From a virus: a stretch of DNA of 26,687 nucleotides. Positions 1 through 22,400 of the stretch are shown here, piece after piece. Under the pieces are notes generated by a model. The model saw only the letters and a program-made list of their open reading frames with translations. It was not told the DNA's origin and searched no databases. Position 1 is the first letter of the stretch, and every line of letters starts with the position of its first letter. Where the stretch lies: IMG/VR virus record IMGVR_UViG_3300020436_000074, positions 1-26,687 of that record, one strand, 5' to 3'. A program made the translations under genes and the position numbers.

Positions 1-545
1 CTAACACTATGTATAGCGGGGTGACTAACATCAAATTCAAAATTTCTACATTGACCATACCACGCACCATCAATATGAACTGGTATTTGATGTTCTTCAC
101 AATGATCTAACAATAAAGAAAAATCTTTATGATAATTTGTGGTTATACAACTTGGATAACTTACAATAAAAACATCACCAAATTTCAATTCTTCAAAACT
201 TTTAATTTGTTTCACTTTAAAATCTGTCAATCTTCTATGATATTTGTATTCACCTTTATATGTTGCGATTCGTCCTTTATGTAAATGATGCAATTCATCT
301 AACTGATGAGTTGTTCCCAATATTGCATCTTTTCTTTTGAAGTTGTTAAGTCCATGATATTTAACACGTTTATGTGATTTTATCCAATAATCAATGTATT
401 CTAAAAATTCTTTTGTATATCCATGTGGGTCATCAGGATAAGTTTTCATGTCCATATTACTTCTAAATTTTTTAAATTCACACACCATCATCGGACGCTG
501 ACGTTTTGTTCCCAGCATTTCAAATGTTATATCTTCATATTTCAT
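1..545 (-). CDS. PLP-dependent aminotransferase-like protein, 3' end cut by window edge
   Basis: An open frame starts at ATG 543-545 on the minus strand and runs off the left edge after 181 codons without a stop, so only the N-terminal part is seen. The stretch IVSYPS, followed about 20 residues later by IPVHIDGAWYG and SHPAIHSV, resembles the middle of fold-type I PLP enzymes (aminotransferases and relatives), where the Asp of the IDxAW/Y motif pairs with the PLP ring nitrogen. The GTTHQLDELHHL segment fits the usual cofactor-phosphate loop region. The Schiff-base lysine would lie beyond the edge. The gene begins 18 bp after the methyltransferase stop and ends the radical SAM operon. It may aminate a keto intermediate made by those enzymes. 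The fold is fairly sure, the reaction is not; a decarboxylase or lyase of the same fold is possible. Confidence 0.7.
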   Translation of the reverse strand, partial: MKYEDITFEMLGTKRQRPMMVCEFKKFRSNMDMKTYPDDPHGYTKEFLEYIDYWIKSHKRVKYHGLNNFKRKDAILGTTHQLDELHHLHKGRIATYKGEYKYHRRLTDFKVKQIKSFEELKFGDVFIVSYPSCITTNYHKDFSLLLDHCEEHQIPVHIDGAWYGQCRNFEFDVSHPAIHSV

Positions 546-563
546 AATTGTTCTATAATAATT

Positions 564-1184
564 TTATTTCTTCCATAATTGTATTTTTTTACCTGCTTCA
601 GATGAAACAAATTTCATACTTGATGAGTTTAAAATATCCTTCATCAACTCAGAATGATTGAAATAATGGTTGCCGATTTTTAGAGTTTTTGTTATATTCA
701 TATTTCTTACAACAAGAAATCCATCATCTTTTAAAAAGTTATATGATTTATTAATAACTGCATGCCAATCAACAATAGAACTAATTAAACTCAAGACAAT
801 TATATCAAATTTTTCATTTGTATCAAATTCCTCAAAATACGTTTTATGTCCTTCAGCAAATGGACAATAATGTATAAAATCTTCCTCTTTAACAATTCTA
901 TCTAATAAGTTTCCTGGTTTGAAATAATCCGCATTCCAATCCTTCACAAAATGTACTCCTTGATCTTCCCACGGATCTACTCCAACATATTTCCAATGCG
1001 GAAATTTTTCATATAAACATGAAAATAATTTTCCTGTAAATGCACCAACATCTAATATTTTTTTTTCAAACCCCTTGGCCCATTGTGGTGTATGTGATTT
1101 TATAGATATGTTTTCCATAAGATCATGAATTATAGAAATTTCATCATCTTTAATCCATCCAGGCACAGTTAATTTATTATCCAT
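564..1184 (-). CDS. Class I SAM-dependent methyltransferase
   Basis: The protein has the SAM-binding motif I KILDVGAFTG near residues 42-51, followed by the acidic loop YVGVDPWED about 20 residues later and a FDIIVLSLI strand near the middle, the usual order of a Rossmann-fold methyltransferase. The C-terminal DDGFLVVRNMN segment matches the strand-6 region of this fold. I chose the start at 1184 because AAGGA lies just upstream of this ATG. A longer frame opens at 1217 but would overlap the radical SAM gene, which stops at 1192. The result is 206 residues, a normal size for a single-domain enzyme. It is the fifth gene of the minus-strand operon, seven bases behind the last radical SAM gene. 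The substrate is unknown; a small molecule, sugar or peptide are all possible. Confidence 0.82.
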   Translation of the reverse strand: MDNKLTVPGWIKDDEISIIHDLMENISIKSHTPQWAKGFEKKILDVGAFTGKLFSCLYEKFPHWKYVGVDPWEDQGVHFVKDWNADYFKPGNLLDRIVKEEDFIHYCPFAEGHKTYFEEFDTNEKFDIIVLSLISSIVDWHAVINKSYNFLKDDGFLVVRNMNITKTLKIGNHYFNHSELMKDILNSSSMKFVSSEAGKKIQLWKK

Positions 1185-1191
1185 ATTTTCC

Positions 1192-2085
1192 TTAATTCCA
1201 TTTTTCCACAATAGCATCTAATTTACATGGACAAGCATCATAATCACAAACAATTGGTTCATCAGGTAAAGTATATGTATCAAACAAATTACCCAAACTA
1301 CCGCCAACTCTTTTTGTACATCTTAAAATATTTCCATTTGACTCAACAAATAATCTCCTAATTCCTGCAGTGCAAGTATATCCTTTGAATTTATGTAAAT
1401 TTTGATCCAATACTTTCATAAAAGAAATTGGTTCTCCATCATAATGTAACATACGAGGAAATGTCCAATCAATACCAAAAGGTTTCATTTTATTATATTT
1501 GTTATTTTTTATCCATTCCCTTTGTTCATCAGTATATTTAAAATAAGTTGTTCCACCTATTTTTGTTCTTGTAAATTTTGGAGTAATTTCAACATTCAAA
1601 TCTTTCAATCTATAAAATAGTTTTTTTGCTCTTTCAAAATTTTCTGGTATGATCATGAGAGGAATACTAACACTTGCTTTATGTTGCATAATTTCCGCTA
1701 CCTTATAGAAATGATCATCGTCTGCACTTTCATAATGCCAACTTAAAAATGCAAAAGCTCTATGAGTTCTAAATTTTTTCCAATAATTTAAAGTTCTACT
1801 AGCGTTAGTACTAAATTCAACAAATACATTATCTTCACTTATAGTATCAACAAAATCTTGAAACTTAGGCCAAAGGGTTGGTTCACCACCAAGAACTTCA
1901 ACATACAAATACTTATTATTTTTTTTAATTCTTTCAATCAATTCAAAATAAGGTTTCCAATCATCTCTCCATCTATCAGATCCATCTCTATGATAATCAT
2001 CACAATAACTACATCTATAATTACAAACATTATGTACAAATAAAGTAACTATACAACAATCTAAATTTTCACTTGTTATGTGCAT
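1192..2085 (-). CDS. Radical SAM protein with C-terminal auxiliary Cys cluster (SPASM/twitch-like)
   Basis: The N-terminal CNYRCSYC is the CxxxCxxC motif that holds the SAM-cleaving [4Fe-4S] cluster, and LGGEPTL further on is the GGE motif that contacts the methionine part of SAM. The C-terminal third contains YTCTAG, ILRCTKR, a GNLF segment and CDYDACPC, which looks like a SPASM or twitch domain binding one or two extra Fe-S clusters. The start at 2085 gives 297 residues and overlaps the upstream gene by 17 bp. A frame opening at 2112 adds nine residues (MFLNLKVYL) and is less likely, since the conserved strand LDCCIVTLF needs no such extension. SPASM/twitch enzymes include peptide-maturing enzymes and small-molecule dehydrogenases. 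Which applies here is not visible. Confidence 0.85.
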   Translation of the reverse strand: MHITSENLDCCIVTLFVHNVCNYRCSYCDDYHRDGSDRWRDDWKPYFELIERIKKNNKYLYVEVLGGEPTLWPKFQDFVDTISEDNVFVEFSTNASRTLNYWKKFRTHRAFAFLSWHYESADDDHFYKVAEIMQHKASVSIPLMIIPENFERAKKLFYRLKDLNVEITPKFTRTKIGGTTYFKYTDEQREWIKNNKYNKMKPFGIDWTFPRMLHYDGEPISFMKVLDQNLHKFKGYTCTAGIRRLFVESNGNILRCTKRVGGSLGNLFDTYTLPDEPIVCDYDACPCKLDAIVEKWN

Positions 2086-3430
2086 TAAATAAACTTTCAA
2101 ATTGAGGAACAACTTCTAAAACATTTTGATTTCTTATTTTATCTAAATTTATTGTTAGATGTACAAATTCTTGAAGCCACGTTCTACCAGTATAACATTG
2201 GCCATCTGTGTAACTTTCACTTAACATAAATTTTTGAACATTATTTAAATATTTTGTAAAAGTTTTTTTAACATAATCATTATGATCAGATTTATCTATC
2301 CATTTTTTGTACTTTGTGTAATGATCAACAACCTTTTCTTTTATATCTTGAGGTAATACTTTTATATTATAGTATTTTGGACTATGACACATATGAAAAC
2401 TAACAATAGGTCTTACTCCACTCAATGGATTAAATTTTGTAAGTTCACTTTCTTCTAATCTCCATTTCATAAATTCAGGAAAATGAAAAACATTGAATGG
2501 TGTAATGGTGAAAGCAAACCAACATTTAAAATTTATATCATTATTGTTTTGTATTTTGTTTAAATTTTTCCAAACACGTTCCCAATTAGTTCCATACCTT
2601 TGATATTCAAAAACATTTTTACAACCATCAATACTTGCTCCTATCCTTATTTGTTTAAAATGTTTCCATAGTTCTAATATGCGAGTTGATACTGTAGTCA
2701 AATTTGAATTATATTCAATTTCAATATTTTTAGCAGAACCATTATCAATTAATAACTGCAAACTATCAATATGTTCTTCTATAATTAATGGTTCTCCACC
2801 AACAATGTAAAGTTTTTTTGCATCTTTAGTATATTCTTTAAAGTTTTTCCAAAAAACATTATCATCTTTAAACCAATCATATTGATTAGTTGTCCATTTT
2901 CCTTTTACATCTTTTATCAACTTTATTTGTTCATGTGTATCTTTGTATTCTGTTTTATTATAAATTTTTACATAGTCATCATACCATTGATCACTATCTG
3001 TTGGTCCACACATTCTACATTTTAAATTACAAAAATTACCATAGCGTATATCAAAATAATCTAAAGGATGATCATCAACATTTATTGTTCCATCTTCATC
3101 TGTTGTTTGCCACGCCTTTTCATAAGTAAGATCCCAATCCTCAGATTCCATAATTCTTCTACTTCTAATACCATTTTTTTCTTCTTGCCTACATCTTTCA
3201 CATTCACTATGCCATTCACCTTTAAGCATTGTTGATCTTATTTCTTTACTTAAATCACTATTTCTGGCGTCTTTTAAATTATCAATTTTTGCATTATAAG
3301 GGGTATCATCTTCTTTACGAATGATACCTCTATTTTTTGTATAACTATTGGCGTTACAACAAATTCTAAGATCACCATTATTTCTTATGTTAATGCTATT
3401 CCAAGGTAAGGGACAAAATGTTTTACTCAT
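2069..3430 (-). CDS. Twitch-type radical SAM protein with N-terminal Cys-rich segment
   Basis: The radical SAM motif is C134-C138-C141 in NFCNLKCRMCGP, with a GGE motif in YIVGGEPLI. Ahead of it sit further cysteines, C6 in FCPLPW, C24-C25 in RICC and C77-C80 in CERC, which probably bind an auxiliary Fe-S cluster. This places the auxiliary cysteines before the barrel, not after it as in standard SPASM proteins. The 453-residue protein is a paralogue of the gene at 3423-4826: both open with SKTFCxLPW and share the Cys pattern, the GGE site and the following YNSN segment. The start ATG lies inside ATGAGTAA, so it overlaps the preceding stop by 8 bp and is probably translated by coupling. Proteins of this architecture are known from marine phages and lack an assigned substrate, as far as I know. 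Confidence 0.87.
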   Translation of the reverse strand: MSKTFCPLPWNSINIRNNGDLRICCNANSYTKNRGIIRKEDDTPYNAKIDNLKDARNSDLSKEIRSTMLKGEWHSECERCRQEEKNGIRSRRIMESEDWDLTYEKAWQTTDEDGTINVDDHPLDYFDIRYGNFCNLKCRMCGPTDSDQWYDDYVKIYNKTEYKDTHEQIKLIKDVKGKWTTNQYDWFKDDNVFWKNFKEYTKDAKKLYIVGGEPLIIEEHIDSLQLLIDNGSAKNIEIEYNSNLTTVSTRILELWKHFKQIRIGASIDGCKNVFEYQRYGTNWERVWKNLNKIQNNNDINFKCWFAFTITPFNVFHFPEFMKWRLEESELTKFNPLSGVRPIVSFHMCHSPKYYNIKVLPQDIKEKVVDHYTKYKKWIDKSDHNDYVKKTFTKYLNNVQKFMLSESYTDGQCYTGRTWLQEFVHLTINLDKIRNQNVLEVVPQFESLFNAHNK

Positions 3431-4826
3431 TTAATAAATCTTTCATTTCAGGAAAAGTATTTGCAAAATTAGTCTTACGAACCTTATCCATTATTGTAAT
3501 ATATTCTTTAAATTCAATCATTCTATTTGACCAATCTTCTGATTTCATAAACGATATCAAACCTTTAAGTCTTTTTATTCCATAATTAGCATTTTTCCAT
3601 TCTTCCAAAGTAATTTCATTTTTATGCCAAGAAGGAATACCCTTCTCCCAATTTTTTTCCCACCATGAATAAAAATCAACATATTTTAAATGACAATCAT
3701 CTTTAAACCATTTTGGTAAAATTTTAACATTTAATTGTGGCGGATGATAAACAAAATGATAATTTACTCCCCCTGCCCCAAAAGGCCACATATTTATTTT
3801 TTTAAATCCTTCATTCAATTTCCATTCTATAAAGTCTGGTATATAATATATGTTTAATGCTTGAACTGCACACGCAAGAGTAACCTCAACATTATCATCT
3901 GTATTATCAAGTAGATGCATTTGTTTTACTTGATGATCCCATTTACTAGGATATCTTATATAATCATTCATAACACCAATAGAATCAATACTATAATGAA
4001 ATCTAATCCTTCTAAATTTTTTCCACAATTCAAACAATCTATCAGGCATTTCAACACCATTACTATTGTATCTCAATTCAATCTGTTCAGAATATCCCAT
4101 TTCAATTACTTTTTCAAGTAAAGTATAATGTTCCTCTATAATTGTACTTTCTCCACCAGCAAAGTATAATTGATAAATGTTAGGTATCTGACTATATAAA
4201 TCATCCCAAAACTTAGGATTGTTTTTGTACCAATTATATGTTGCTCCGTGTTGATCAACTCCGCCACCGTGCCATTGTGAAGTATATTTAAGTGACTCAC
4301 TTTTTACTTGTGGATAATATTCTTTCCAATCTGGTATCCACGCAGATGAGTCATGTGGACTACACATAATACATTTTAAATTACATTTAGAACCTAAACG
4401 TAAATCAATATATCTAATTTTTGGCGGAATTTCACCATCTTCTTTTGTCTCTCCTATTATGTCATCTAAAGTAAATCTTTCCAACCAATATGCAGTTTCC
4501 CATTGTCTTTTACTTCTATGTCCTGCATCTTCTTCTTTAAAACATTTCATGCAACTAGCAGGTTTTTCTCCCGCTAACATTTGTTTTCTCACATTTTTCA
4601 TGTAAGAGTTATTCCAAGATTCATTTAAACCAACTACATTTAAATTAGCAGGTTTTCCATCTTCAGTTCTCAATTCTCCTAATTTTCCACCATGTTCTTT
4701 ATGATCTGTCTTACCCACAGAAGACGCATTTGCAGTACAGCACACCCTCATCGCACCATCAGGTCTTGTACTAAGGTGCATCCAAGGTAATGCACAAAAT
4801 GTTTTACTTGGTAAATTTATTGCCAT
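3423..4826 (-). CDS. Twitch-type radical SAM protein with N-terminal Cys-rich segment
   Basis: The 467-residue protein carries C148-C152-C155 in SKCNLKCIMCSP as the radical SAM cluster site and AGGES as the SAM-contacting GGE motif. The N-terminal region has C11 in FCALPW, C29-C30 in RVCC and C92-C95 in CMKC, matching the paralogue downstream. The shared spacing shows that the auxiliary cysteines are under selection. It overlaps the upstream radical SAM gene by 10 bp (ATGGCAATAA) and the next gene by 8 bp, so the three are one translational unit. The C-terminal 150 residues are rich in Trp, Tyr and Lys and have no motif I recognise. The pair could act as a heteromer or on successive positions of one substrate; this is inference. 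Confidence 0.87.
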   Translation of the reverse strand: MAINLPSKTFCALPWMHLSTRPDGAMRVCCTANASSVGKTDHKEHGGKLGELRTEDGKPANLNVVGLNESWNNSYMKNVRKQMLAGEKPASCMKCFKEEDAGHRSKRQWETAYWLERFTLDDIIGETKEDGEIPPKIRYIDLRLGSKCNLKCIMCSPHDSSAWIPDWKEYYPQVKSESLKYTSQWHGGGVDQHGATYNWYKNNPKFWDDLYSQIPNIYQLYFAGGESTIIEEHYTLLEKVIEMGYSEQIELRYNSNGVEMPDRLFELWKKFRRIRFHYSIDSIGVMNDYIRYPSKWDHQVKQMHLLDNTDDNVEVTLACAVQALNIYYIPDFIEWKLNEGFKKINMWPFGAGGVNYHFVYHPPQLNVKILPKWFKDDCHLKYVDFYSWWEKNWEKGIPSWHKNEITLEEWKNANYGIKRLKGLISFMKSEDWSNRMIEFKEYITIMDKVRKTNFANTFPEMKDLLNE

Positions 4827-5887
4827 TGTGCTTTGTACGCATCAAATCCTGTACCACATTTGTTAGCACAGACTTTTAATCTACCTTCTTTTACACTAGA
4901 ACATGACCAAGAATTTTCAATCATATTAAAAAAATTTCCTTCAATTATATCTTTCAGTTCATTATATATAGCGTTGATATTATTTGGATCTTTGATCATA
5001 TTCCATATTGGTGCTTCTTTTGGTTTCCAATACCATTTATATTGCTGTCCACCCAGCCAACAACAAGGGAAAACATGACCTTCAGCAGTGACAAATATTT
5101 CTGATTTTTCAATAGATTTACAATTAATATCAGTAACATCATAGTAATGATCCATACTTCCATACTTATTAACAAGATTCTTTTCTTGCTTTAATGCATT
5201 ATTAATATACTCATCTTTTGGTTTTTCTAATTTTTGTGTTTCTTGTCCTTTTCTATTCATTCCTTGATGAGATTCTTTTCCTTCATGTTTAACAGTAGAA
5301 AAAAATCTTCCTGTTTTCTTTGTTCTAAAATCATCAAACCTCATCTTTTTCGCTAACTCTCTTGCTTCTTCTATCTGATGTTGATTGTGGTCAAATATGA
5401 TGAATTCCCAACGTGCTCTACCACCTTTAGAAATAAATGCAGCAGAATTTTTCATACAGTTTTCCCAATTAACACCTTGTCTATATAAATGATTTGTATC
5501 ACCCAAACCGTCAAAAGAAAAAGTAACATGACCTTTTCTTCCCATGATAATTGCTAACTCTTTCCACCATTCAACATCTTGTGCACCACCATTTGTATTC
5601 ATTGAAAGATGCATATTATTATTCTCAATTCTAAAATATTCTAAGCCATAAATACTGTCATGTGAAATACATGGATCACCAAGATTACCACACATATACA
5701 TATGATCCAATTGTTTAATAAATTCTTTTCTAAATATTATGTGATAGTCTAATGTACTTAATTCTGCACCTGTGAGATATGGATTATCTTTACCACCATT
5801 TATGTTACGATCACATTGTAGACATGCTGCTTGACATTTTTGAGTTGGTTCAATATGAACACTTTTAATATTAGAATATTTTAACAT
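4817..5887 (-). CDS. Radical SAM/SPASM-like protein, first gene of the minus-strand operon
   Basis: The radical SAM motif is C18-C22-C25 in QKCQAACLQC. Where most members have GGE, this protein has GNLGDP (residues 67-72), a variant SAM-contact motif. The C-terminal region holds C256, C275-C276 in VFPCCW, C329, C340 and C344, consistent with a SPASM domain with extra Fe-S clusters. The SMNTNGG stretch near residues 95-101 and SFDG near 124-127 fit later strands of the TIM barrel. The 356 residues are typical for the family. The start ATG at 5885-5887 overlaps the start of the divergent glycosyltransferase by two bases, and no clear ribosome binding site is visible. The gene leads a run of six coupled genes. 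Its reaction is unknown. Confidence 0.86.
   Translation of the reverse strand: MLKYSNIKSVHIEPTQKCQAACLQCDRNINGGKDNPYLTGAELSTLDYHIIFRKEFIKQLDHMYMCGNLGDPCISHDSIYGLEYFRIENNNMHLSMNTNGGAQDVEWWKELAIIMGRKGHVTFSFDGLGDTNHLYRQGVNWENCMKNSAAFISKGGRARWEFIIFDHNQHQIEEARELAKKMRFDDFRTKKTGRFFSTVKHEGKESHQGMNRKGQETQKLEKPKDEYINNALKQEKNLVNKYGSMDHYYDVTDINCKSIEKSEIFVTAEGHVFPCCWLGGQQYKWYWKPKEAPIWNMIKDPNNINAIYNELKDIIEGNFFNMIENSWSCSSVKEGRLKVCANKCGTGFDAYKAQWQ
5831..5859 (+). promoter_or_regulatory. Possible sigma70-type promoter for the plus-strand cassette
   Basis: TTGACA at 5831-5836 is a perfect -35 hexamer, and 17 bp later TATGAA at 5854-5859 matches the -10 consensus at four of six positions. Transcription would begin about 20 bp before the ATG at 5886. 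The site lies inside the opposing radical SAM gene, over the codons of its CxxxC motif, so the -35 box may owe its sequence to coding needs. There is no intergenic space, so some promoter for the cassette has to lie in this coding sequence. Confidence 0.3.
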
Positions 5888-6638
5888 GACAAATTTTTTT
5901 TGTTTAAAATGGGGAACAAAATATTCACCAATATATGTAAATAGATTATTTAATTCACTTAAAGTAAATTACAATAATTCTTTCAATTTTCATTGTCTTA
6001 CTGATGATTCAGAAGGTTTGAATAAAGATATTGAAATAAAACCAATTCCTAAAACATTTTCAGAATATCCTAGAACACAAATTTTTACTTCTGAAAAAAT
6101 GTGCTATTTTAATGACTATGCATATTTATCTGGTAAAAAAGCATGGTTTGACTTAGATATACTTATACAAAAAAATATTACAAGTGAAATAGAGAAAGAA
6201 CATACTAAAGTAAAATTTATATGGAATCATTGGAGAGATCCTCGTGCTTCAATTGTAAATTATGGATTTTTAACTTGTAATATTAATTCATCCTTTGTTG
6301 CTTGGCAAGATAGTATTGGATATAATTTATATGAAGATCTTATAAAAGTGAAAGAAAAGGCATTTTTTTCATATCCATCATTTGACAAATATATTTTCTA
6401 CCAATGTCATAGAAAAAATCAAATAGATTTTTGGCATGATAAAATTGCATATAATTATAATATAGGTGGAATTTTTCCTAAAGACAATCAGCCAAAGAAA
6501 TATAGAAAAGATTATAATTTATGTTTGTTCAATACCTCACATAAAGCATGGGCAAAAAGAGAAGAAACACAAATAGAGCTACATGAAACTAATGATTGGG
6601 CTAAAACATTATGGGAAAAATATGACAACATCTTATGA
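5886..6638 (+). CDS. Glycosyltransferase-like protein (GT-A type, DxD motif)
   Basis: The N-terminus NFFCLKWGTKYSPIYVNRLF and the later AWFDLDILI (DLD at 89-91) have the pattern of nucleotide-sugar-dependent transferases of the GT-A fold, where the DxD motif holds the metal and the sugar nucleotide. This resembles GT8-like enzymes, with a first strand, a helix of NRLFNSL type, then a HCLTDD strand. The 250-residue length suits a single catalytic domain; no signal peptide or membrane segment is seen, so it should be cytoplasmic. It is a distant paralogue of the protein at 7846-8514: both have FDLDILI and a C-terminal CLFN. It is the first gene of the plus-strand cassette and shares bases of its start codon with the divergent radical SAM gene. 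Donor and acceptor are unknown. Confidence 0.72.
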   Translation: MTNFFCLKWGTKYSPIYVNRLFNSLKVNYNNSFNFHCLTDDSEGLNKDIEIKPIPKTFSEYPRTQIFTSEKMCYFNDYAYLSGKKAWFDLDILIQKNITSEIEKEHTKVKFIWNHWRDPRASIVNYGFLTCNINSSFVAWQDSIGYNLYEDLIKVKEKAFFSYPSFDKYIFYQCHRKNQIDFWHDKIAYNYNIGGIFPKDNQPKKYRKDYNLCLFNTSHKAWAKREETQIELHETNDWAKTLWEKYDNIL

Positions 6639-7158
6639 AACGTTAATGAAAAATCAAAAAGATGATTATAGATATCTTATTGATTATTCTAATAATGATG
6701 ATGTAAAAAAAATATCATGGAGAATTTATGATGAAATAATGATTCATTTTGATGAAGAAATTGTTCATTTTTTATGTAGTTGGTATTGTCATTTAGAAGT
6801 TGATGATTTTGAACCATTTGGTTATGAATGTTATTATTATGATATAGATCCTCTTGTTTGTCAAGCAAATAAAAAAATAACAAAAAATGTAATCAATAAA
6901 GATATTATATTTGATGATATAAAAATTAATGAGAGTATTATTGTAAACAAATATTGTGAGGTATGTTATCCTGTTGGTAAAATCTTCAAAGGAAAATTTG
7001 CTTTGATTGGATCTGATAATCCACATTTAGCATGTATCAATCCAATAAAAAGTTGTCAACAATTAATAGATCAAAATGAATTGTCTAAAGTTTATTATAA
7101 AACAAAAATTGAAGGCAGACACAATTATTACATGGTATTAGGATGCAATCAAGTATAG
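6622..7158 (+). CDS. Methyltransferase-like protein with degenerate SAM motif
   Basis: The 178-residue protein starts at 6622, where GGGA lies a few bases upstream; longer frames from 6583 would overlap the glycosyltransferase further. It is a paralogue of the next gene: SWYCHLEVDDF (residues 53-63) lines up with GWFGCPLIDLL there, YYYDIDP with FYEIDE, and both end in YMVLG/YMVIG. In the partner, GGWFG looks like the glycine loop of a class I methyltransferase followed by the acidic residue on strand 2. Here the loop reads CSWYC and lacks the glycines, so SAM binding is doubtful. It may be a non-catalytic partner of the neighbour, or the shared fold may serve another purpose. It overlaps the previous gene by 17 bp and the next by 16 bp. 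Confidence 0.6.
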   Translation: MTTSYETLMKNQKDDYRYLIDYSNNDDVKKISWRIYDEIMIHFDEEIVHFLCSWYCHLEVDDFEPFGYECYYYDIDPLVCQANKKITKNVINKDIIFDDIKINESIIVNKYCEVCYPVGKIFKGKFALIGSDNPHLACINPIKSCQQLIDQNELSKVYYKTKIEGRHNYYMVLGCNQV

Positions 7159-7853
7159 AAAAATTAAAAAAACTTGAAAATAAGATTTCAAAAAGAACAA
7201 AAAAAATTAAAGAAAAATTAGCAAGTGTAAGAAAACAAAATAGTAATGATATAAGAAAAATAAATCATTTGCCATATCATAAGGTACATAATTGGATTCT
7301 TAATAATCAAATAAAAAGTATCGACAGTTATCATGATTCATTATCATATGGTCAATTATCATCAAAAATGTGGTTGATAGATCAATTGCCAGAAGGGAAA
7401 GAATTATACATTGAAATAATTGGTGGTTGGTTTGGATGTCCTCTCATAGATCTTTTAAATTCAAAATTAAATATTAAAAAAATTGATTTTTATGAAATAG
7501 ATGAATCTTGTAAAAAAGTTTTAGCACAATATCTTAATCATTTTAAATTCAATTTTAAGGTATCTGTGTTTGGAGATTTTTTTGAGAGAAAAGAATTAAG
7601 ACGTAGAGATTTAATAATAAATACCTCATCAGAACATATGCAAGACATTACAAAAATGAAACAATATTTTAAAGGAAATCCTGCTATAGCTATTCAATCA
7701 AATGATTATTTTGAATTAGAAGAACATACTAATTGCGTAAATGATATTGAGGAATTAATTTTAAAAAATGAAATAAAAAAAGTATGGTATAAGGGAAAAA
7801 AAGAATTTGAAAAATATAATAGATACATGGTGATAGGACAATGGTATGACTAA
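7143..7853 (+). CDS. Methyltransferase-like (Rossmann-type) protein with basic N-terminal helix
   Basis: The first 35 residues are a strongly charged helix or coiled coil rich in Lys. The following domain has IEIIGGWFGCP (motif-I-like, GGWFG at 94-98), FYEIDE (116-121) as an acidic loop, and DLIINTSSEHM (156-166) in the place of the fourth strand. This order is that of class I SAM methyltransferases, but the glycine loop is not the canonical GxGxG. It is a paralogue of the gene before it, so the pair looks like an old tandem duplication. The stop overlaps the start of the next gene (ATGACTAA). A SAM-binding enzyme is the best guess; a related nucleotide-binding fold with another job remains possible. 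Confidence 0.62.
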   Translation: MQSSIEKLKKLENKISKRTKKIKEKLASVRKQNSNDIRKINHLPYHKVHNWILNNQIKSIDSYHDSLSYGQLSSKMWLIDQLPEGKELYIEIIGGWFGCPLIDLLNSKLNIKKIDFYEIDESCKKVLAQYLNHFKFNFKVSVFGDFFERKELRRRDLIINTSSEHMQDITKMKQYFKGNPAIAIQSNDYFELEEHTNCVNDIEELILKNEIKKVWYKGKKEFEKYNRYMVIGQWYD

Positions 7854-8514
7854 ATTTGCAGTTGCTTGTATTTGTGTAGGTGACAAATATAATATCAATG
7901 ATGTCAAAAAACTTGAAAAAATGGTTTTTGATAATACATCTTTAGATATTAATTTTAGAGTATTTGATGAACCTATACTATACAAATGGTGGAACAAAGT
8001 TTTATATTTTTCTCCACTAATAGAACCATTTAAGGAAGATGTTGTCATAGCTTTTGATCTAGATATATTGATAAAGAATAATATTGATGAATTGTTTGAA
8101 TGGGCTACAAATGTTAATGGCCTTGGTTTAGTTTGGGCAAAATGGAGACACTCAGGAAATATTGTTCCATATGAAGATTTAAAATATGGATTACGAAACG
8201 AAACTACTTTTGAAAATAATAGAAGAAATAGAAGACCAAGCACTCCATATAATTCATCAATCATGTGCTGGAAACCAAATACTATGAATGAAATATGGGA
8301 TAGATTTAAATTTGAATATCAATCTAAATGGCCTGGTTTTGATTATTATGTATGGATGGATTATCATACATTGGACAAAATACCAAATAAATTTTATTAT
8401 TCAGCTTACTTTGAAAATTATAAAGATCTAAATTATCCTATATGTTTATTCAATCAAATAAAAAATAAAAAAGAAATACCAAATTTATGTCCTTGGATAA
8501 AAAAATATGAATGA
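7846..8514 (+). CDS. Glycosyltransferase-like protein (DxD motif)
   Basis: The 222-residue protein has an N-terminal strand FAVACICVG and VVIAFDLDILI with DLD at 71-73, the metal- and donor-binding motif of GT-A transferases. A later PYNSSIMCW segment and the D-rich FDYYVWMDYH stretch fit the acceptor half of such enzymes. It shares FDLDILI and the C-terminal ICLFN with the first gene of the cassette, at 5886-6638, and is therefore a second copy of the same family at low identity. No transmembrane helix is seen. It overlaps its neighbours by 8 bp on each side, pointing to coupled translation. Donor and acceptor cannot be told. Confidence 0.72.
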   Translation: MTKFAVACICVGDKYNINDVKKLEKMVFDNTSLDINFRVFDEPILYKWWNKVLYFSPLIEPFKEDVVIAFDLDILIKNNIDELFEWATNVNGLGLVWAKWRHSGNIVPYEDLKYGLRNETTFENNRRNRRPSTPYNSSIMCWKPNTMNEIWDRFKFEYQSKWPGFDYYVWMDYHTLDKIPNKFYYSAYFENYKDLNYPICLFNQIKNKKEIPNLCPWIKKYE

Positions 8515-9175
8515 AATGTTAAAAGATTATTTTATGGATCTATCTAAAAAAAATGCTAAAAAAGCTTTAGATTATTTTATTATGGGTAAAATATATCCTT
8601 ATGAAATACAATATGCAAATGAAATGACATATAGATGGATTGTAAAATATTGTTATGAAGTATGTAAAATAATAAGTGAAGAACATCCTAATAAATCATT
8701 TTTAGATTTTGGTTGTGGTATAGGTGCTATAGAATATTTTAATGATTTATTTTTTGATTGTAATATTGATAGTTGTGATTGGATTGATAGAGATCAAATC
8801 TATAATGAAATGCAATTAAAAGAACCAAAATTTAATTGTTCCGATTGGTTAAGTAATGATTTTAAAATATTTAATTGCAATATAAAATATGATGCAATTA
8901 TAATTATGAGAAGTATTCTTCTCCATCAACTTCCAGAAGATAAGAATTTACCAAACACTTTTGAAAATTTTATTAGACTTTTAGAAAAAATATTACCATA
9001 TCTAAATGAGAAAGGTGAAATAATTTTACTACAACCTAGAGAGAATTTTATAACAGAAATAAAAGATTTTTTGGTAAGTAATAACACTAAGTTTTTCAAT
9101 AAAAAAATACCTGGTGAAGGTGATGTATATAGTTTAAAACCAAGCTCCATTGAGACTTTTATTAGTCAATTTTAA
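8507..9175 (+). CDS. Class I SAM-dependent methyltransferase
   Basis: SFLDFGCGIGAIEYF (residues 64-78, glycine loop G69-C-G-I-G73) is a canonical motif I, followed by the acidic loop CDWIDRD and by YDAIIIMRSILLHQL, where motif IV and the start of the next helix are expected. ILPYLNEKGEIILLQP is a typical strand 6 region after the hairpin. The 222-residue length is normal for a single-domain enzyme. The ATG at 8507 overlaps the glycosyltransferase stop by 8 bp; an in-frame ATG three codons later is an alternative. The gene closes the plus-strand cassette, and its last 42 bp overlap the convergent oxygenase gene. It is the most intact methyltransferase of the cassette. The substrate is unknown. 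Confidence 0.8.
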   Translation: MNEMLKDYFMDLSKKNAKKALDYFIMGKIYPYEIQYANEMTYRWIVKYCYEVCKIISEEHPNKSFLDFGCGIGAIEYFNDLFFDCNIDSCDWIDRDQIYNEMQLKEPKFNCSDWLSNDFKIFNCNIKYDAIIIMRSILLHQLPEDKNLPNTFENFIRLLEKILPYLNEKGEIILLQPRENFITEIKDFLVSNNTKFFNKKIPGEGDVYSLKPSSIETFISQF

Positions 9176-9820
9176 ATCGTATTTCAACATTTCTTCTATT
9201 TCTGGTCTGTCAATATATAACTCATCTGTTAAAACGAATGCAACAGACATTCTATAACAATTAGTATACATAGCATGCCAACTATAACCAGTTTCTTTTG
9301 CTTCAAGATGACTATAAAATTTTAAAGACTTGACATTCCACCCTTTTGAATCATGATAATCTTCCCAATTATTTAACTTATTGTTATATAATCTGAAAAT
9401 ACCATCACCTTTTTCAGACCATGAAAATAAAATATTTCTCCCAGGGATATCTCCATTATGATGCCAACCAATATAACCGCCTGGCGGATATAAAGTCATT
9501 AATGCGGGCCTTCTGCACATTACTGATGCCCCCAATTTTTCAAAAATTTTAATTACATTTACTATTGAATTATTTTTATCTTCTTTTAATTTTCCATTTG
9601 TCCAATCTATAGATTTTAAATATCCTGGTTTGCCACTATGCCAAGGCCCAGAAGATTCAATTATATTAGATAATAATTCTTCTGATACAGAATATTCTGG
9701 AGCAATTTCATGAAGTCCAAAATCGGTTTTATTTACTTTGATATTTTTTATATCAGGAATGTATTTTTCTATATCTTTTAATATGTCCAAATAATATTTT
9801 GGAATGTCTTTTTCTACCAT
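9134..9820 (-). CDS. Probable 2-oxoglutarate/Fe(II) oxygenase, Asp/Asn hydroxylase-like
   Basis: The central part reads YPPGGYIGWHHNGD, then RNILFSW, then SWHAMYTNCYRMSVAFVL. This is the layout of jelly-roll 2OG oxygenases: a first His (H120 or H121), a distal His (H182) and an Arg eight residues later (R190) that would bind the 2-oxoglutarate carboxylate. The usual Asp/Glu two positions after the first His is Asn or absent, as in Asp/Asn beta-hydroxylases that manage with two histidines. The 228-residue length fits. The gene overlaps the glycosyltransferase upstream by 7 bp, and so belongs to the fibre operon transcribed from the right. It may hydroxylate a fibre residue, a lipid or a sugar. 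The fold assignment is moderately sure and the substrate is unknown. Confidence 0.6.
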   Translation of the reverse strand: MVEKDIPKYYLDILKDIEKYIPDIKNIKVNKTDFGLHEIAPEYSVSEELLSNIIESSGPWHSGKPGYLKSIDWTNGKLKEDKNNSIVNVIKIFEKLGASVMCRRPALMTLYPPGGYIGWHHNGDIPGRNILFSWSEKGDGIFRLYNNKLNNWEDYHDSKGWNVKSLKFYSHLEAKETGYSWHAMYTNCYRMSVAFVLTDELYIDRPEIEEMLKYDLKLTNKSLNGAWF

Positions 9821-10527
9821 CTTGGATAACTATAAAAAATTATTTCATCTCTTGTAAATCCTTCAAGTTTTTCATCATATCCTTGAATAAAATTCCATTT
9901 AGCGTCATCATTTTTATTTGTATCAAAATACCAATTCCATTTTATATCATCTCTATACCAAGGATCATCTTTATCAAATAACATTAAGTGTAAAGGAAAT
10001 TGATCCCATCCATTTACATTTTTAGGATCGTACTTATCCGTCCATCTTTCATGCCATTGATTGTTGGATTTCCATTGCCAATTATTCCACCACTCACTCA
10101 TAAATGTTTTCATTCTATTATTATTATTCCAGACAAATGAGCCCCCATGTGGTCTGTATTCCTCATTAACATTCCACCATACTTTTGCAGCGTTATATGT
10201 TCTTATTTTTGTAAAAACAATGTCATTATCCATTAATGAATTAAATACATTATCAGCTTCATTAGAAAGACATATCATATCAGCATCAAGAAAACAAGTT
10301 ATATCATAAGGAGTTTTAGTCAATCCCCATAATTTTGCTCTAATATCATTTGGTGCACCACCAACAACGTTATCAAATATTCGATTTCCTAAATCATTAA
10401 CCCATCTATCTTCTGTGACTAATGTAATTGGATATGATGAATATTCTTTAATACTATCTGCTAAAAGTTGAGTGGCGGATAAATAAAATTTATTTTTTGA
10501 TGCAACAGTTAAAAATCCTTTATTCAT
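9814..10527 (-). CDS. Glycosyltransferase-like protein (DxD motif)
   Basis: The 237-residue protein opens with GFLTVASKNKFYLSA, then PITLVTED, and has ITCFLDADMICL with DAD at 81-83, the metal-binding DxD motif of GT-A glycosyltransferases. The NDIRAKLWGL helix before it contains the basic residues often found near the donor site. Later HGGSFVWNNN and WDQFPLHLML are consistent with the acceptor-side loop and a conserved Asp. It is not closely similar to the two transferases of the plus-strand cassette. The start overlaps the stop of the 140-residue gene by 8 bp and its own stop overlaps the oxygenase start, which places it in the late fibre operon. Fibre or surface glycosylation is a reasonable inference; the donor is unknown. 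Confidence 0.72.
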   Translation of the reverse strand: MNKGFLTVASKNKFYLSATQLLADSIKEYSSYPITLVTEDRWVNDLGNRIFDNVVGGAPNDIRAKLWGLTKTPYDITCFLDADMICLSNEADNVFNSLMDNDIVFTKIRTYNAAKVWWNVNEEYRPHGGSFVWNNNNRMKTFMSEWWNNWQWKSNNQWHERWTDKYDPKNVNGWDQFPLHLMLFDKDDPWYRDDIKWNWYFDTNKNDDAKWNFIQGYDEKLEGFTRDEIIFYSYPRW

Positions 10528-10963: not shown

Positions 10964-12157
10964 TTATCCTATTCGTCTCCAAAGATAATAAATTGTGCTT
11001 GAATGTGTTGATTGAACTGTATCACCTGCAAACTGTCCTGTATACTGGGCTGAATAATTTCTTTGAAAATTTCCAGTATACTGTTGTGAAAACAACTGAC
11101 TTGCATATCCTGTGTAATATGGACTATACCTAGCTCCTCCATAATTTCCATAATGTGTTCTAAATTGACCAGAATAATTTCTTTGAAAATTTCCAGTATA
11201 CTGTTGTGTAAAAAACTGACTTGAAAATCCTGTAAATTGACTAGAATACTGTTGAGAACTTACATTAGCTATCTTATCTTCAAATGACCCCATTTGTGTC
11301 CATGTTCCACCAGAAGGAGCACTTGATGAAGTTGTTAATGAATATGATCCAATAGTTCCAACAACAGTAGACCCAATTGTTCCTTGATCTGCTAAAAGAA
11401 AATTTCTCCATTCATTTACTAATGTTTCTACATCAGCGTCAGTCATTTGTCTTATATTTCCTGCTACACCACTTTCTGTCGAAGTTTTACATGGAATATA
11501 CGCATTGCCAGAAGATAATGTTGAATCAGTACTTCCACTATCAGCAGTTTTTCTATAAAGATAATGAGGGGTATTAGCATCAGTATAACCTGGTGACAAA
11601 CCGAATAATCTGTGAGTTTCATTAAATGAGGTAATTACAGTTCCGGTTCCTCCACCATAACCGTAACCAAGACTGTCCATAGTTCCCGCAGTAGTCCAAG
11701 TTCCACCTAAATTCGGAATGCCTGATCCAAAAAAATATGAACCAACACCAGTACTTGTTCCTGTTTGTCTCCACACCTCTGCGCAACATCTTAAAATATC
11801 TGTTTTTAATTTTGTAGAGTTCATTTCATGAATGACACCAGACCCCTCCCAATTAACTGGCCATGTCGGGGCAGATGAATTTGCACCAACTCTTTGAGTA
11901 AATGAAAAATTAGCTGTTGAAAATGCAGTTGGATTAGATCCATGATAACCAACATCATTATTTCTTATTGTATTACTACCATTACCAATACCACCTGATA
12001 AATCATGTCCTGTATTAAGATGTATATTTCCTCTAAGACTAGTACCAGCTTCTTGTGCAAATTTATCTAAAATTAAAGGAACTATTCGTCCTTTAATTTC
12101 AGCATCAGACATTTCTGCCAAATCACTTGTGTTTAAAACTCTTAATGGTCTTCCCAT
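10964..12157 (-). CDS. Tail fibre or tip protein with Tyr-rich C-terminal repeats
   Basis: The N-terminus MGRPLRVLNTSDLAEMSDAE, preceded by AAGGA six bases upstream, resembles the start of virion structural proteins in marine T4-like phages. The middle is rich in Gly, Ser and Thr, as in beta-structured fibres. From about residue 300 the protein turns to aromatic repeats: SQFFTQQYTGNFQRNYSGQF recurs 40 residues later as SQLFSQQYTGNFQRNYSAQY. Such YTGNF/NYSG runs suggest a repetitive distal tip or receptor-binding surface. The last ten residues, STIYYLWRRIG-like, are basic and aromatic. The gene sits behind two other fibre genes and ahead of an unknown 140-residue gene and a glycosyltransferase. 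A virion role is likely; adhesion to the host is inferred. Confidence 0.75.
   Translation of the reverse strand: MGRPLRVLNTSDLAEMSDAEIKGRIVPLILDKFAQEAGTSLRGNIHLNTGHDLSGGIGNGSNTIRNNDVGYHGSNPTAFSTANFSFTQRVGANSSAPTWPVNWEGSGVIHEMNSTKLKTDILRCCAEVWRQTGTSTGVGSYFFGSGIPNLGGTWTTAGTMDSLGYGYGGGTGTVITSFNETHRLFGLSPGYTDANTPHYLYRKTADSGSTDSTLSSGNAYIPCKTSTESGVAGNIRQMTDADVETLVNEWRNFLLADQGTIGSTVVGTIGSYSLTTSSSAPSGGTWTQMGSFEDKIANVSSQQYSSQFTGFSSQFFTQQYTGNFQRNYSGQFRTHYGNYGGARYSPYYTGYASQLFSQQYTGNFQRNYSAQYTGQFAGDTVQSTHSSTIYYLWRRIG
11052..11103 (-). repeat. 120-bp-spaced direct repeat, copy nearer the gene's 3' end
   Basis: A 52-bp stretch recurs exactly 120 bp away at 11172-11223. The first 37 bases are identical between the copies and the rest differ at a few places. 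It encodes the QYTGNFQRNYS unit of the fibre protein. The in-frame 120-bp period points to duplication of a 40-residue unit. Confidence 0.85.
11172..11223 (-). repeat. 120-bp-spaced direct repeat, copy nearer the gene's 5' end
   Basis: This is the partner of the repeat at 11052-11103, with 37 identical bases at 11172-11208. The near-perfect DNA identity suggests recent duplication or gene conversion within the fibre gene. Confidence 0.85.
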
Positions 12158-16465: not shown

Positions 16466-19400
16466 TTATGAATCCAATGCTATTACTCTAAGATCTTTTA
16501 CTTGTGGAACATTTGAACCGTCAGATGAAGAAAGAACAATTTTAATTGCAAATGTTTTAAAATCTTTAAATGTTGTTGTTCCAACTGAATATTCTGCTGT
16601 TTCATTAGGAGTTTTATAAACATAGGTTATAAAATCTGATTCATTTGCAGAAAACATATTACCATCAGTTTCTTGTGAAAATTTCTTCCAAGATTTATTA
16701 TCAAATATTTCACTATCATTTCCACTAAGGACTTTGTAATATACGTGAATATTTGAAACACTTGGTTTATATGCTCTTAAATATACTTTTAAATCTTGTG
16801 CATCAAAACCATCTTCTAAAGATACCCTTCTTGTAATATATCTCACTTTATTATTACCACCAGATTGTCCAAGTTCGGATGCTATATTGATTACCGCACC
16901 AGAACCAGAAGGTGGTGTAATTGAAATATCATCAAAATATCCAGACCCCGCTGAAGATACTGTAGCTGAAGTTATAACCCCACCAGTGACTCCTATTGTC
17001 ACAACTCCACCAGTTCCAGAGGTTCCAGTAACATTTACAGTTCCTGCTGAATATCCTGTTCCCCCTTTAATAATTGAAATATCACTATCAGAAATTTCTC
17101 CATTACCAATAATATTTTCTACTGTTATCAAGTTTAATCTATCTAAATCAATAGCAGGAGAAACATTTGAATCTGCAGTAGCCATTTGTGCTTGAATTAA
17201 GGTATCTGGTAAATTACTGACAAAATTATTTGTTCTAATTTTCTTTGTATTATCAAATATTAAATTTTTATTATTTGAAAATTTAGTAAATGTTGTATCT
17301 CTTGCTGATTCAGAATTTTTTGTATTTTGATAAAGATATTCTAAAACGGTATCAGAAAATTTAAGATCAGAAGAAGACAATTTCATAACATCAAATTTAG
17401 TATCAGATGTAGCTCCAGATAATGGAGATGGTTTAATATTAAATTGACAAAGATTTGCATCTGATGTTGTCAATTGAAATGAACATTTTTGTAATTTAAA
17501 CATCATACTTCTATTCTTAATATTTGTCCATTCACTTGAATTTTGTGTAATAAAAAATTTACCAATTTCTGGTGTTCTTCCTGCTTTAGTATTTGATGTT
17601 GTAGAATTTGTAACAATTCCACCATCTACAGAAGTATATACTTGATAAAACCGGCTATTGGTTAAAACAACTATAGCGTGCTCTCCAGGAGGTAAATAAA
17701 CTGGTGATGGAAATTCAAATTTAGTTCCACTAGAAGATAGTGCTGCATTAGGTGAAGTTGTATCTTTGTATACTTGATCAGGAACCAAAGTTTTTTCTGC
17801 GAATGGAAAGACTGCAGAAGAACTAGGAACTCCACTTACCATTGGTCTTATTTGAACAGTGATGGGACTATAAGCATCTTTGTCTAAAAAGTAAAGAGTT
17901 AAATTTCTTAAAAATATACCATTCTTATATTTTGTTTCATCTACAAAAAATGATTGTGCCATTGGATTAACAAAATTAACAGAAGAAGATTTTCTAGAGA
18001 CAGAATCTTTTGTAATTGTATTTGATTTTATATCTTCTCGTCTTGCCAACGCTGACCGAGTTGAAACTATAGATCCATCTGTTGTATTTTCCATTCCTTT
18101 AATATGAAATGTTTTTTCAGCAACAGATTCATTAGATGACAATGTATTATCTACTGAATCAGTAATTCTAACCAATCTTTCACCAGTTCTAAATTGTCCA
18201 GCTGTTAAAGTCATGCTACCAGCTAAAACTCCATTTACATCTGAAGTAAAATTTGTATTTGCTGCTGTTACAGAAAGAGCGGCATTTGCTGTAGTGCTAC
18301 CTCCACTTGTTACATAAGTAGCTTGAACTACTGTTGAAGTTCCTGTAGATGCCCAATCGCCATTTGTATTAGCAATTAATAATGTTGAATTTCCTTGATA
18401 ATCTGTATGAATTAATGTTCCATTTATTGCTGGTGTATCTTTTACACTTACAGTTACATATTCTCCCTCATTTGCAACAAATGTAGAATCACCGGGATTA
18501 GTTAATGATAATTTATAAGCAGATTGTGAGGAATCTCTCATTTTTACATCGTCAATATAAATGTAATGTTCTGTACTTGGTTTTAATCCTTCAGCTTTGA
18601 ATAATATAGTTTGTTCTCTGCTATAAGGTACTATTGTTTCATTAACAATTCTATTATTTACAGTTTTCTTAATTGTTTCTGGTTGGTTTTGTGAAAGAAT
18701 ACCTTCTCTTGAAATTGTTTGTTCAATTGTTTTTGCAGTTCTCGAAATTGTTGTTACTGATCCTTTTTTTCTAATTTTTGTAACATCATCATTATTAACT
18801 TCTACACCACTCCAATTTTTAGACCAACTATCCCATTGTGTACCAAAACCTTTTGTTGCTGCACCAGACGCCCAATTGTCATTTTGTCCTTCTAAATTTA
18901 CCAAAACATCAGCATATTTGTCTTGATAAAACCAAGTATCACTTGATGGGCTTAATGTTAAAGTTCCATTAAAAGACGTTGCTCCATATGGATTTACATA
19001 TTCAGTTCTTGTGGTTGTTGGTTGAGTTATAAAATCAGAATCCGTATATGCAAGTGTAACTAAGCTACCAGTTTTTTTAATATTTGAACTACTAACAGAA
19101 AAATCAAATTTAAAATTTTCTGAATTAAATGATGGTCTTAATGTGGATTGATCATAATCTATTGAAACTTTATAATCAGAATCAACAACATCACCTATTG
19201 AATGTCCTGAAAATTGATCAACTAAAATACCATTTTTAAAACGTTCAACACCCGCATCAGTAAAAATTGGTTGATCTTTTGCATCTTTTTCTAAAAATGA
19301 TAATGAAGTATAATATTCTAATTGCTCTATTCTTTTTTCCAATTTACCAATATCTCTCATGGTAAATCTTTTATTTTCAATATATTGTAAAGTTATATCA

Positions 19401-22400
19401 GTCACATTGAAAGTATATTCAGGAACATCTGCAATATATAAAGTCATTGAATCTTCATCATCAGCTGGTACTACTGGATCAACTGAAGGGATACCCTCTA
19501 TAATATCAAATTCTCTATTTTTAGACAATACTATTTTATCTTTTCTTGGTAAATAAAATTCAACATCAGTATTCAAAACAACATCCGCATCTGGAATAAC
19601 TGGTAATATTGTTGTTTTACCATTAATGCTTGAAGTATCTAAAGCAAAATTTGTTGCTACATCACCATTTGTTCTTTTTGGCCTAAAATCTAAACAATTT
19701 CTTAAATTTACTGTACGACCTGTAGTAGGACTAAGAAAAGTTGGAATATCTGCAAATGCTACACCCGCAGATGCTCCCAGATAAGTATCAACTGTAAATG
19801 GTGCGTTTTCTGTACCATGAGTAAAATAGTCAAAAACTGCGACAATTGGTGTTACTGGTGCAGATTCACCAGGTTTTAATGTTATTGATCCATGATCATA
19901 ATAATTGTCTTTTTGTCCACTATTAAAAGTATATTTTGATGTAATATTATTTGTGTCAGAATCACTCGCACAGGCCGCAGCAAATAATGAACTAGTTAAA
20001 CTAGAAAATGTTGTGGTGGGTGCTTTTACAACTGCTTTAAGAGATTTAATATCAGATGTTTTTAAACTAATTGTTGTGTTAGCAGCATCACCAGTTGTAA
20101 TCAATGCAGCATATTGACCTTTTCCTCTCAATGTAGATTCATTATTAGTAGAATCAAATGTAGTTGTATTTGCATTAACAATAGTTTTTGTCCTAAAACC
20201 AGTTGCTGCAGTATCAAAAACAACTGTTGCAACAATTGAAGCTCTAAAAGTATCACCAGAACCCCCACCAGTATCAAGATTTAAAGATGTACCACCAGCT
20301 GGTATTTTGCTACCAGAACTAACTACACATGGCACAATATCACCATTTTTTCTAGCGGTACTTTGTTTATCATGTACCGCAACAATATAATTATCTAACA
20401 AATCTGTTGTTGATAATGATACTTCAGCTGATCCTCCTGGTTTAAAAATACCCGGTGCAGCAGACAACCCTTCCATTAAACCATTGGTAAATTGGACAGT
20501 TGAACTATCACCAGAATATAATCTTTTTACAGTATAACCAAAATCAGATCCAGTTAAAGGTTTTAATGTTTTTACTACTGATTGAGGAAGTTCGTAAACT
20601 AATGAATTTCTTGTTGTTTCAAATATTTTTGTATCACTAGTTACATCTAATGTATCAACTTTACCTAATCGAGAAATTTCACAATGTTTATCAATAGATC
20701 CACCGCCATTTGATTCAATAATACTTTCTATTTCAGTTGTAGCAAAGTCAATTTGACAAGTATCTGTTGAACCAATATCTGTTAAAAATGCTTTATCAAC
20801 TGTAATAGTATGTCCTGATTGTGCTGTAATATTTCTTATTTGATTAACAGCAAGCCCACTTGTCATTTTTATTTTTCCACCAACATAAGCAGATGCCACA
20901 TTTGATGAAGTTCCATTATGTAATTCTACTGTTAATGTACCCGCGGAAGTTGAAGATCCTGTTGCTACATTTGATTTAATACTTGAAAAACTAGTATCAT
21001 AAACATATAAATCATATGTTCCACCACTAGTTCCTGGAGTACCAGAAAAATAATCAACTTGTCTTACTCTTGTTGTTCCTATTTTTGTTTTATTGTAATT
21101 GGCTACAGATCCAGTAACAATATCTACTCTTGATACACAATGTAAATCAACAACATTTTGTGTTGCAATATTAAATACATTATTGGCGCTATCAATTCTA
21201 AAGTAATTACCAAAGTTTGTATTAACAACAAAATCAACTGCAGTATTTGTATCTCTACCTTTTCTTATATCAACAAATTCAGTTGCAATACTCTCATATT
21301 CATAACCTCTCACATACGCTTTACCTGGTTCTAATCCAACAGATACTTTGTCATTATTCAAAATTGTTTGTGTTTGACCAGAACCAATAGCTGGATTGAT
21401 AGTCATCGCTGTATTGGATGATATCGCAGTAATTGTCGATGATGCAGAAGTCACTGAACCATTTGTTAATTGAATTGTATCTCCAACCCTAAATTCATTT
21501 TTAAATTTTGTAGATAACCCATCTATTGTTGTTGTAGAACTAGCTGTAGTTGTTCCAGTTGCTCCTTTATGTTCATTAAGATTTGCTAAGAATGGTCTTA
21601 CTGAATAATTACCAGACTCATCAAAAGTTCTTCTTGCTAAAGTATTATCTAACTCTGAATATAAAGGATAATTTACAATTTTAGTTGGTGTTCCATTTTC
21701 AACTCTTAAAATTTCAACAAAACTTGCATCAGAGACATTTGTAATAGCTTTTTTATCCAATACTAAAGAAATCTTGTATCTATTAGCACCAGATGCATTA
21801 ACGTTATAAGAACCTGCTGCATTATCTAATAAAGTTGTATCATCAGAACTTGTTGTAACTGACTCTGTTATTGTAAGTCCAACTTTATATGTTGGAGTCG
21901 CACTTTGTTTTTCTAAGACAAGGGTTTGTGTATCAACAATAACAAAAAATCCATTTACATAATAAATTCCTTCAGCAATTGTTGCTATTGATGCTAATCC
22001 AGTAATTGTTCCAGATGTTTGAGTAGTTGTACTTGTAGATGTATCACCAACAATATGAATTGTTGTACTTGTTCCACTTATTTGTGCTGATCCATTATAC
22101 CTAACAATTAACATAGGATCATCAGTTCCAACCGCAGCAACTGACGCGATCACATCAGCAGTGACTGTTGGTTGATTTAATACTTGTATTTTTTGATTTA
22201 CAAAATTTGCTAATGTCGTATTTGTGGCTACTCTTATATAATGAACATTAGTATCCAAACTAACCTGACCGCCAGTTACTAAACTTCCATCTTTATAAAA
22301 TGCATCACCAAATCTTGATATTTGATTTTGAAGAATAGTTTGTAATTGTATTAATTCTCTTACTTGAATTGATACAGAAGGTTGAAATAACATTCTGAGA

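Follow-up and report, generated by a model that had tools for sequence, protein, structure and literature searches.

An ordered cassette of radical SAM genes in a T4-like marine phage fragment, recurrent in other viral contigs, with a possible role in glycan tailoring

The stretch of DNA analyzed here, referred to below as the window, is the entire IMG/VR record IMGVR_UViG_3300020436_000074, a metagenomic fragment of a T4-like marine phage with a length of 26,687 bp and 30% G+C. Its left end carries a cassette of six minus-strand genes predicted to encode four radical S-adenosylmethionine (SAM) enzymes, a methyltransferase and part of a pyridoxal phosphate (PLP) enzyme. A first-pass annotation had described six tightly coupled minus-strand genes at 1-5887, and the open reading frames were confirmed there as follows.

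4817..5887 (-): RS1, radical SAM protein of 356 amino acids; CX3CX2C motif (C18/22/25) and C-terminal SPASM/twitch-like cysteines 256, 275, 276, 340 and 344
3423..4826 (-): RS2, N-terminal-twitch radical SAM protein of 467 amino acids; NF033640 score 422 bits, a highly conserved member
2069..3430 (-): RS3, second N-terminal-twitch radical SAM protein, 453 amino acids; NF033640 score 369 bits
1192..2085 (-): RS4, radical SAM protein without N-terminal twitch; ATG start, alternative TTG at 2112; PF04055 score 48 bits; C-terminal cysteines 238, 256, 280, 285 and 287
564..1217 (-): MT1, class I SAM-dependent methyltransferase of 217 amino acids; PF13489 E 7.7e-8
3..545 (-): AT, first 180 amino acids of a PLP fold-type-I aminotransferase-like protein, the gene being cut by the record end

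Overlaps of 10 bp (RS1/RS2), 8 bp (RS2/RS3) and 17 bp (RS3/RS4) were observed, MT1 and AT are separated by 18 bp, and a start at 1217 would make MT1 overlap RS4; all six genes are overlapping or spaced by no more than about 20 bp. The start codons of RS1 (-) and of the first plus-strand gene, p250, abut at 5886/5887, so that each divergent promoter must lie inside the opposite gene or farther off. A scan for the late-promoter motif TATAAATA with one mismatch allowed gave no match near the RS1 start, and it was uninformative because the whole window has 108 matches of this quality.

Related viral loci, all from metagenomic records and designated by L numbers, were collected by searches with RS2, RS3 and RS4. 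The order RS1-RS2-RS3-RS4-AT, on one strand, was found in 16 other independent viral contigs as well as in the window, at 48-80% identity to the window proteins. The first-pass annotation had proposed such a search of metagenomic viral contigs, in which single genes scattered without fixed order would have spoken against a common pathway; with the order recurring in 16 other contigs, that outcome was not observed. Homologues of RS4 with 58-81% identity were present in 21 viral loci, and the order RS3-RS4-MT1-AT was found in a 518-kb contig (L195, L205). MT1 was not a constant component, its relatives adjoining AT in some loci (L183, L195, L201, L212). Protein distances among RS1, RS2, RS3 and AT were correlated across loci (Mantel r 0.46-0.62, p<=0.001), and the correlation was weak for pairs with RS4. 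The suggestion of one common pathway is much strengthened by fixed order and correlated distances; action of the enzymes on a single substrate is presumed, and MT1 is inconstant.

A smaller core was apparent in a broader collection of 87 viral loci; these had been chosen by RS2, so that the presence of RS2 in them is by construction. Most of these loci contained a p236-like gene, RS1, RS2 and a protein with a glycosyltransferase GT-A fold, c3 (226 amino acids in L171); RS1-cluster proteins were found in 82/87, p236-type proteins in 61/87 and c3 in 49/87. In the window, and likewise in L007 and L011, its closest relatives, the p236-type gene lies across the divergent junction from RS1.

The four radical SAM enzymes are of two kinds. 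The PF04055 model matched in four places in the window, with RS4 and RS3 above its cut-off and RS2 and RS1 below. Against the curated NCBIfam model NF033640 (N_Twi_rSAM, N-terminal-twitch radical SAM), which has a cut-off of 170 bits, RS2 and RS3 scored as members, whereas RS1 (36 bits) and RS4 (27 bits) did not. RS2 and RS3 combine CX3CX2C with the N-terminal auxiliary-cluster cysteines shared by that family, a model that names no reaction. The invariant cysteines among aligned relatives were C18/22/25, C66, C256, C275, C276, C340 and C344 for RS1 (116 rows); C6, C24, C25, C77, C80, C134/138/141 and C348 for RS3 (41 rows); and C10, C21/25/28, C238, C256, C280, C285 and C287 for RS4 (33 rows). 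RS2 has cysteines at C11, C29, C30, C92, C95 and C148/152/155, of which C11, C29, C92, C95 and C148/152/155 are invariant in its rows. The earlier description of four radical SAM enzymes with extra iron-sulfur (Fe-S) cysteines was borne out, as CX3CX2C and the auxiliary cysteines are kept in all rows of relatives. The label twitch-type was likewise correct for RS2 and RS3, with the domain placed N-terminally; RS1 and RS4 carry C-terminal SPASM/twitch-like cysteines. The AlphaFold2 model of RS2 had a mean pLDDT of 89, and its nearest folds were SkfB, CteB, anSME and MoaA.

MT1 had been annotated as a class I methyltransferase, which the PF13489 match upheld. For AT, assignment to PLP fold type I is tentative: the full-length homologues of about 300 amino acids have a conserved Asp and the lysine of an SLSKG motif, but the window gene is truncated by the record end and its PLP lysine therefore lies outside the window. 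The AT profile matched aminotransferases weakly, with a best E of 0.02.

Islands of such enzymes in related viruses reach considerable size. A 99-kb record contained 17 PF04055 matches and another record 16, and N_Twi genes numbered 17 in a 242-kb record and 16 in the 518-kb contig mentioned above. No N_Twi family members at E<=1e-20 were found in 14 control genomes. Divergence among 24 aligned N_Twi proteins was too great for the alignment to serve as a scan query. One locus contained a natural fusion of consecutive island enzymes, a single open frame of 1417 amino acids with two complete N_Twi radical SAM domains (G005:C1:62148-66401; L005/L021). Among the cultured phage records searched, no close relatives of RS1, RS2, RS3 or RS4 were found. 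In the cultured giant Vibrio phages K566 (L017) and K567, however distantly related, several radical SAM genes also form an island, and these phages might serve as a laboratory model.

A counterpart of the core was found outside viral records, where a scan of genome contigs returned RS2 orthologues at 53-66% identity. Fifteen of these, nearly all labelled Bdellovibrionota, formed one clade (94/98) within the viral diversity, and one of the 15 lies on a 936-kb contig, which places it on a chromosome. The conserved local set comprised c3, RS2, an RS4-like enzyme (RS4a) and RS1. Six other contigs from metagenome-assembled genomes of various bacterial labels (L035, L038, L047, L050, L051, L053) are probably phage contigs binned with bacteria; their RS2 interleaves with viral RS2 in the tree, and they were excluded as evidence for chromosomal location. 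N_Twi genes were present in 30/114 sampled Bdellovibrionota genomes, with up to 13 per genome. In five Bdellovibrionota genomes, 12/77 GT2 glycosyltransferase genes were located no more than 5 kb from an N_Twi gene, where 1.5 would be expected (Poisson P 8.5e-8, ignoring GT2 clustering), an enrichment that is independent of the phage region.

These results bear on whether there is a pathway at all. Unrelated auxiliary genes might simply have been gathered by recombination in a hypervariable region, as the greatly varying remainder of the island gene content between phages, the absence of RS3, RS4, AT and MT1 orthologues from many RS1-RS2 loci and the weakly correlated RS4 distances would allow. 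This explanation is considered highly improbable, given five genes in identical order and strand at 48-80% identity in 17 loci, together with a core that is also kept on Bdellovibrionota chromosomes, where the 15 RS2 orthologues are one clade.

The surroundings of the cassette indicate where its product might act. From the right end of the window inward there are baseplate genes, a VrlC homologue, tail-fibre-like proteins and the block of small-enzyme genes. Radical SAM genes downstream of VrlC and the tail fibres are the layout of the pelagimyophage "host recognition cluster", and the window VrlC homologue matches VrlC of HTVC008M in size and place. The other border of that cluster is the neck gene gp14; on this side the window ends within AT. 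According to PMC7029224, the host recognition clusters of pelagimyophages differ by radical SAM cassettes, and lipopolysaccharide-type GT8 genes were noted in them. The gene set also extends past the divergent junction, since in L007 and L011, the closest relatives, RS1-RS2 are accompanied by p250, p191, p236 and GTa (5886-8514, +).

5886..6638 (+): p250, putative glycosyltransferase-like protein with an FDLDILI (DxD-type) motif; 78-84% identical orthologues beside RS1 in L007 and L011; homologous to the product of 7846-8514
6583..7158 (+): p191, short p236 paralogue; profile-profile match to p236, 94%
7143..7853 (+): p236, core-associated protein, no family assigned; GWYG and NTSxEH motifs in relatives; in 61/87 viral and 10/21 bacterial-contig loci
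7846..8514 (+): GTa222 (GTa), putative glycosyltransferase-like protein with an FDLDILIKNNI motif; profile-profile match to p250
8507..9175 (+): second methyltransferase-like protein; PF13489 E 0.007, below cut-off
9134..9820 (-): putative 2-oxoglutarate-Fe(II)/Asp hydroxylase-like protein; weak profile match to an Asp_Arg_Hydrox-type cluster, 49%
9814..10527 (-): GTb237, GT8/glycogenin-like glycosyltransferase next to the fibres; profile match to glycogenin, E 1.9e-5
16466..22474 (-): VrlC homologue of 2002 amino acids, the anchor of the host recognition cluster; 35% identity to the open reading frame annotated VrlC in Pelagibacter phage Mosig, E 8e-85
22485..24257 (-): baseplate wedge gp8; phrog_438 E 5e-101, Pfam Gp8 E 7e-13

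The favored interpretation, to which about an even chance is assigned, is that the cassette tailors a glycan of the surface or the virion in several steps. It is favored because of the glycosyltransferase matches of c3, the glycogenin-like GTb237, the sugar enzymes of relatives, the GT2 enrichment in Bdellovibrionota and the lack of a conserved precursor peptide. The model of c3 had a pLDDT of 92.5, and its leading Foldseek matches were nearly all glycosyltransferases, with probability near 1 and TM scores of only about 0.4. Among the enzymes encoded in the islands of relatives are a PseF-like CMP-sugar synthetase, UDP-glucose dehydrogenase, a NodU-type carbamoyltransferase and hexulose-phosphate enzymes, and also APS kinase, sulfotransferase and Asp hydroxylases; L011, a close relative, has a NodU homologue between p250 and RS1.

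Under the glycan interpretation, the four radical SAM enzymes, the PLP enzyme and the methyltransferase would act successively on one substrate, most likely a glycan sugar, that the adjoining GT-A-type glycosyltransferases would build or attach. The radical SAM enzymes may abstract hydrogen from unactivated C-H bonds of the bound sugar, leading to oxidation, deoxygenation or epimerization; a resulting ketone could be transaminated by AT, and MT1 or p236 could cap the new group. Optional neighbors in related phages (carbamoyltransferase, QueC-like amidotransferase, sulfotransferase, dioxygenases) may add further decoration. A precedent is butirosin biosynthesis, where an aminocyclitol is first oxidized by BtrN, a twitch radical SAM enzyme, and a PLP aminotransferase acts next. 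The suggested sequence of radical SAM oxidation, transamination by AT and methylation by MT1 is patterned on this pathway, an analogy of function in which no homology is claimed beyond the radical SAM superfamily. The benefit to the phage might be a host surface changed so that competitors are excluded, or a decorated tail fibre.

Several observations weigh against this interpretation. By profile as well as by fold, the solved structures nearest to RS2 are those of maturases of peptides or proteins (SkfB, CteB, anSME), and SPASM/twitch enzymes act mostly on peptides. None of the sugar-aminotransferase families of Pfam or NCBIfam was matched by AT, p250 matched no family, p250 and GTa had no structure match, and the window itself shows no sugar-nucleotide enzyme. 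The inventory of sugar enzymes comes from relatives, in a region where glycan genes are frequent in any case, and the Poisson P given above for GT2 is too small, as GT2 genes cluster. Sequence-profile searches of the PDB with c3 and p236 also gave no matches.

The closest solved structures of RS2 make modification of a peptide or protein the main rival. The radical SAM enzymes would in that case cross-link, epimerize or form thioethers in a tail-fibre, baseplate or host protein, with the glycosyltransferases acting on the same protein. SkfB was the sole match of the RS2 profile in the PDB (E 1e-7), and SkfB, CteB, anSME and SuiB were the top fold matches; TM scores to these maturases were low (0.3-0.4), however, and the SPASM domain of the sactipeptide maturases SkfB and CteB is C-terminal, whereas the auxiliary-cluster domain of RS2 is N-terminal. 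RS1 resembles a tungsten-oxidoreductase maturase family at E 1.6e-10, far below the cut-off of that family. The cassette adjoins tail-fibre genes, and a conserved protein of 74 amino acids occurs in 41/87 viral loci, in many of them directly upstream of RS1. A substrate of the type expected for ribosomally synthesized and post-translationally modified peptides (RiPPs) did not emerge: a small-frame search of 108 loci revealed no open reading frame common to viral and Bdellovibrionota loci in the manner of a precursor. Among those window proteins that were scanned, Pfam and NCBIfam reported no RRE/PqqD-like leader-binding domain. A peptide or protein target is regarded as rather unlikely.

Three candidate substrates were considered and rejected. 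The 74-amino-acid protein (L115:2107-2331, L146:6361-6585 and 42 further loci) is conserved over its full length, LRxLQKESARALSTMxATNNNI...GDLPSxxGPGKDVKLV, without a family match; it is absent from the window, its closest relatives and Bdellovibrionota, and was dismissed as a universal substrate. Short, basic peptides ending in DPFIY[DKE] (L113:2239-2355, L179:1602-1703, L159 near 6097, L082 near 2519(-)) are, in most of the loci where they occur, encoded immediately next to NodU carbamoyltransferase genes, which makes a carbamoyltransferase partner likelier than a RiPP precursor; they are possibly comparable to the small proteins of other carbamoylation operons. The fibre-like protein at 10964-12157 (-) has C-terminal Tyr/Phe/Gln-rich repeats (QYTGNFQRNY), and these Tyr/Phe-rich repeats did not recur in any of the other loci retrieved, nor in any phage record.

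The product might instead be a diffusible small molecule, such as one resembling an aminoglycoside or a guanidino compound, or else a modified nucleotide, such as one of the viperin type or a 7-deazaguanine base of DNA. Relatives carry genes for carbamoyltransferase, QueC-like and, by the look of their sequences, amidinotransferase-like proteins, and Campylobacter phages pair radical SAM genes with glycine amidinotransferase (PMC2853527). The scores of RS4 against QueE (35 bits, cut-off 206) and viperin (32 bits, cut-off 180) are far under the family cut-offs, and either identity for RS4 was rejected. QueD, FolE and DpdA are not among the island families listed, and the position beside tail fibres and glycosyltransferase genes favors a surface target, so that a diffusible product appears improbable.

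Returning to glycan tailoring, a broader proposal is put forward tentatively and with some doubt: phages and predatory Bdellovibrionota, which both kill Gram-negative bacteria but are unrelated, may share a pathway (p236, RS1, RS2, RS4a-type enzyme, c3) whose product would be a glycan tailored by radical SAM enzymes, or another surface modification, of undescribed chemistry; marine phages would have elaborated this pathway with up to 17 N-terminal-twitch enzymes.

Phage radical SAM arrays are already known. In PMC2853527, multiple radical SAM genes in one phage were termed highly unusual in 2010; the virulent Campylobacter phages CP220 and CPt10 have 11-12 radical SAM proteins per genome and an exchangeable module of five radical SAM genes and an amidinotransferase. 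Their radical SAM proteins are only weakly similar to those of the window (22-27% over part of the protein), and glycine amidinotransferase stands in place of AT. Arrays of 10-17 genes have since been reported or were observed here, and the T4-like virus TARA_ERS488813_N000010 has 12 (PMC5332604). The pelagimyophage host recognition cluster (PMC7029224) is among the closest described settings, with radical SAM cassettes and GT8 genes reported in the same place behind VrlC among the tail fibres. The accessible portions of PMC7029224 and PMC5332604 note the presence of such genes and do not mention the p236-RS1-RS2-RS3-RS4-AT order or the Bdellovibrionota counterpart. More widely, in those portions of the open-licence literature that were available, no function for phage radical SAM arrays, no fixed order and no Bdellovibrionota counterpart were mentioned; the conserved cassette and its Bdellovibrionota link were not met there.

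Such arrays have thus been noted since 2010 without an assigned function, and the fixed five-gene order, the small core and the chromosomal counterpart narrow the problem to a handful of genes suited to joint expression and assay. Some islands, at more than 45 kb, take up a large part of a phage genome, for which the return must be considerable. A glycan or a modified fibre, if that is the product, would bear on host recognition or locking by abundant marine phages and on an untapped radical enzyme chemistry.

Other small genes accompany the islands. Several large cassette-bearing viral records encode small proteins with an NDDYTPMDFV motif, which are taken to be ClpS-like (L107:3462-3800, L110:4548-4850, L117:2307-2630). 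Proteins presumed from their sequences to be Fe-S assembly factors of the MIP18/SufT type are encoded beside islands at L107:5080-5382 and L112:5508-5813. Fe-S assembly genes are known from such viruses (PMC5332604), in line with the MIP18/SufT-like proteins seen here.

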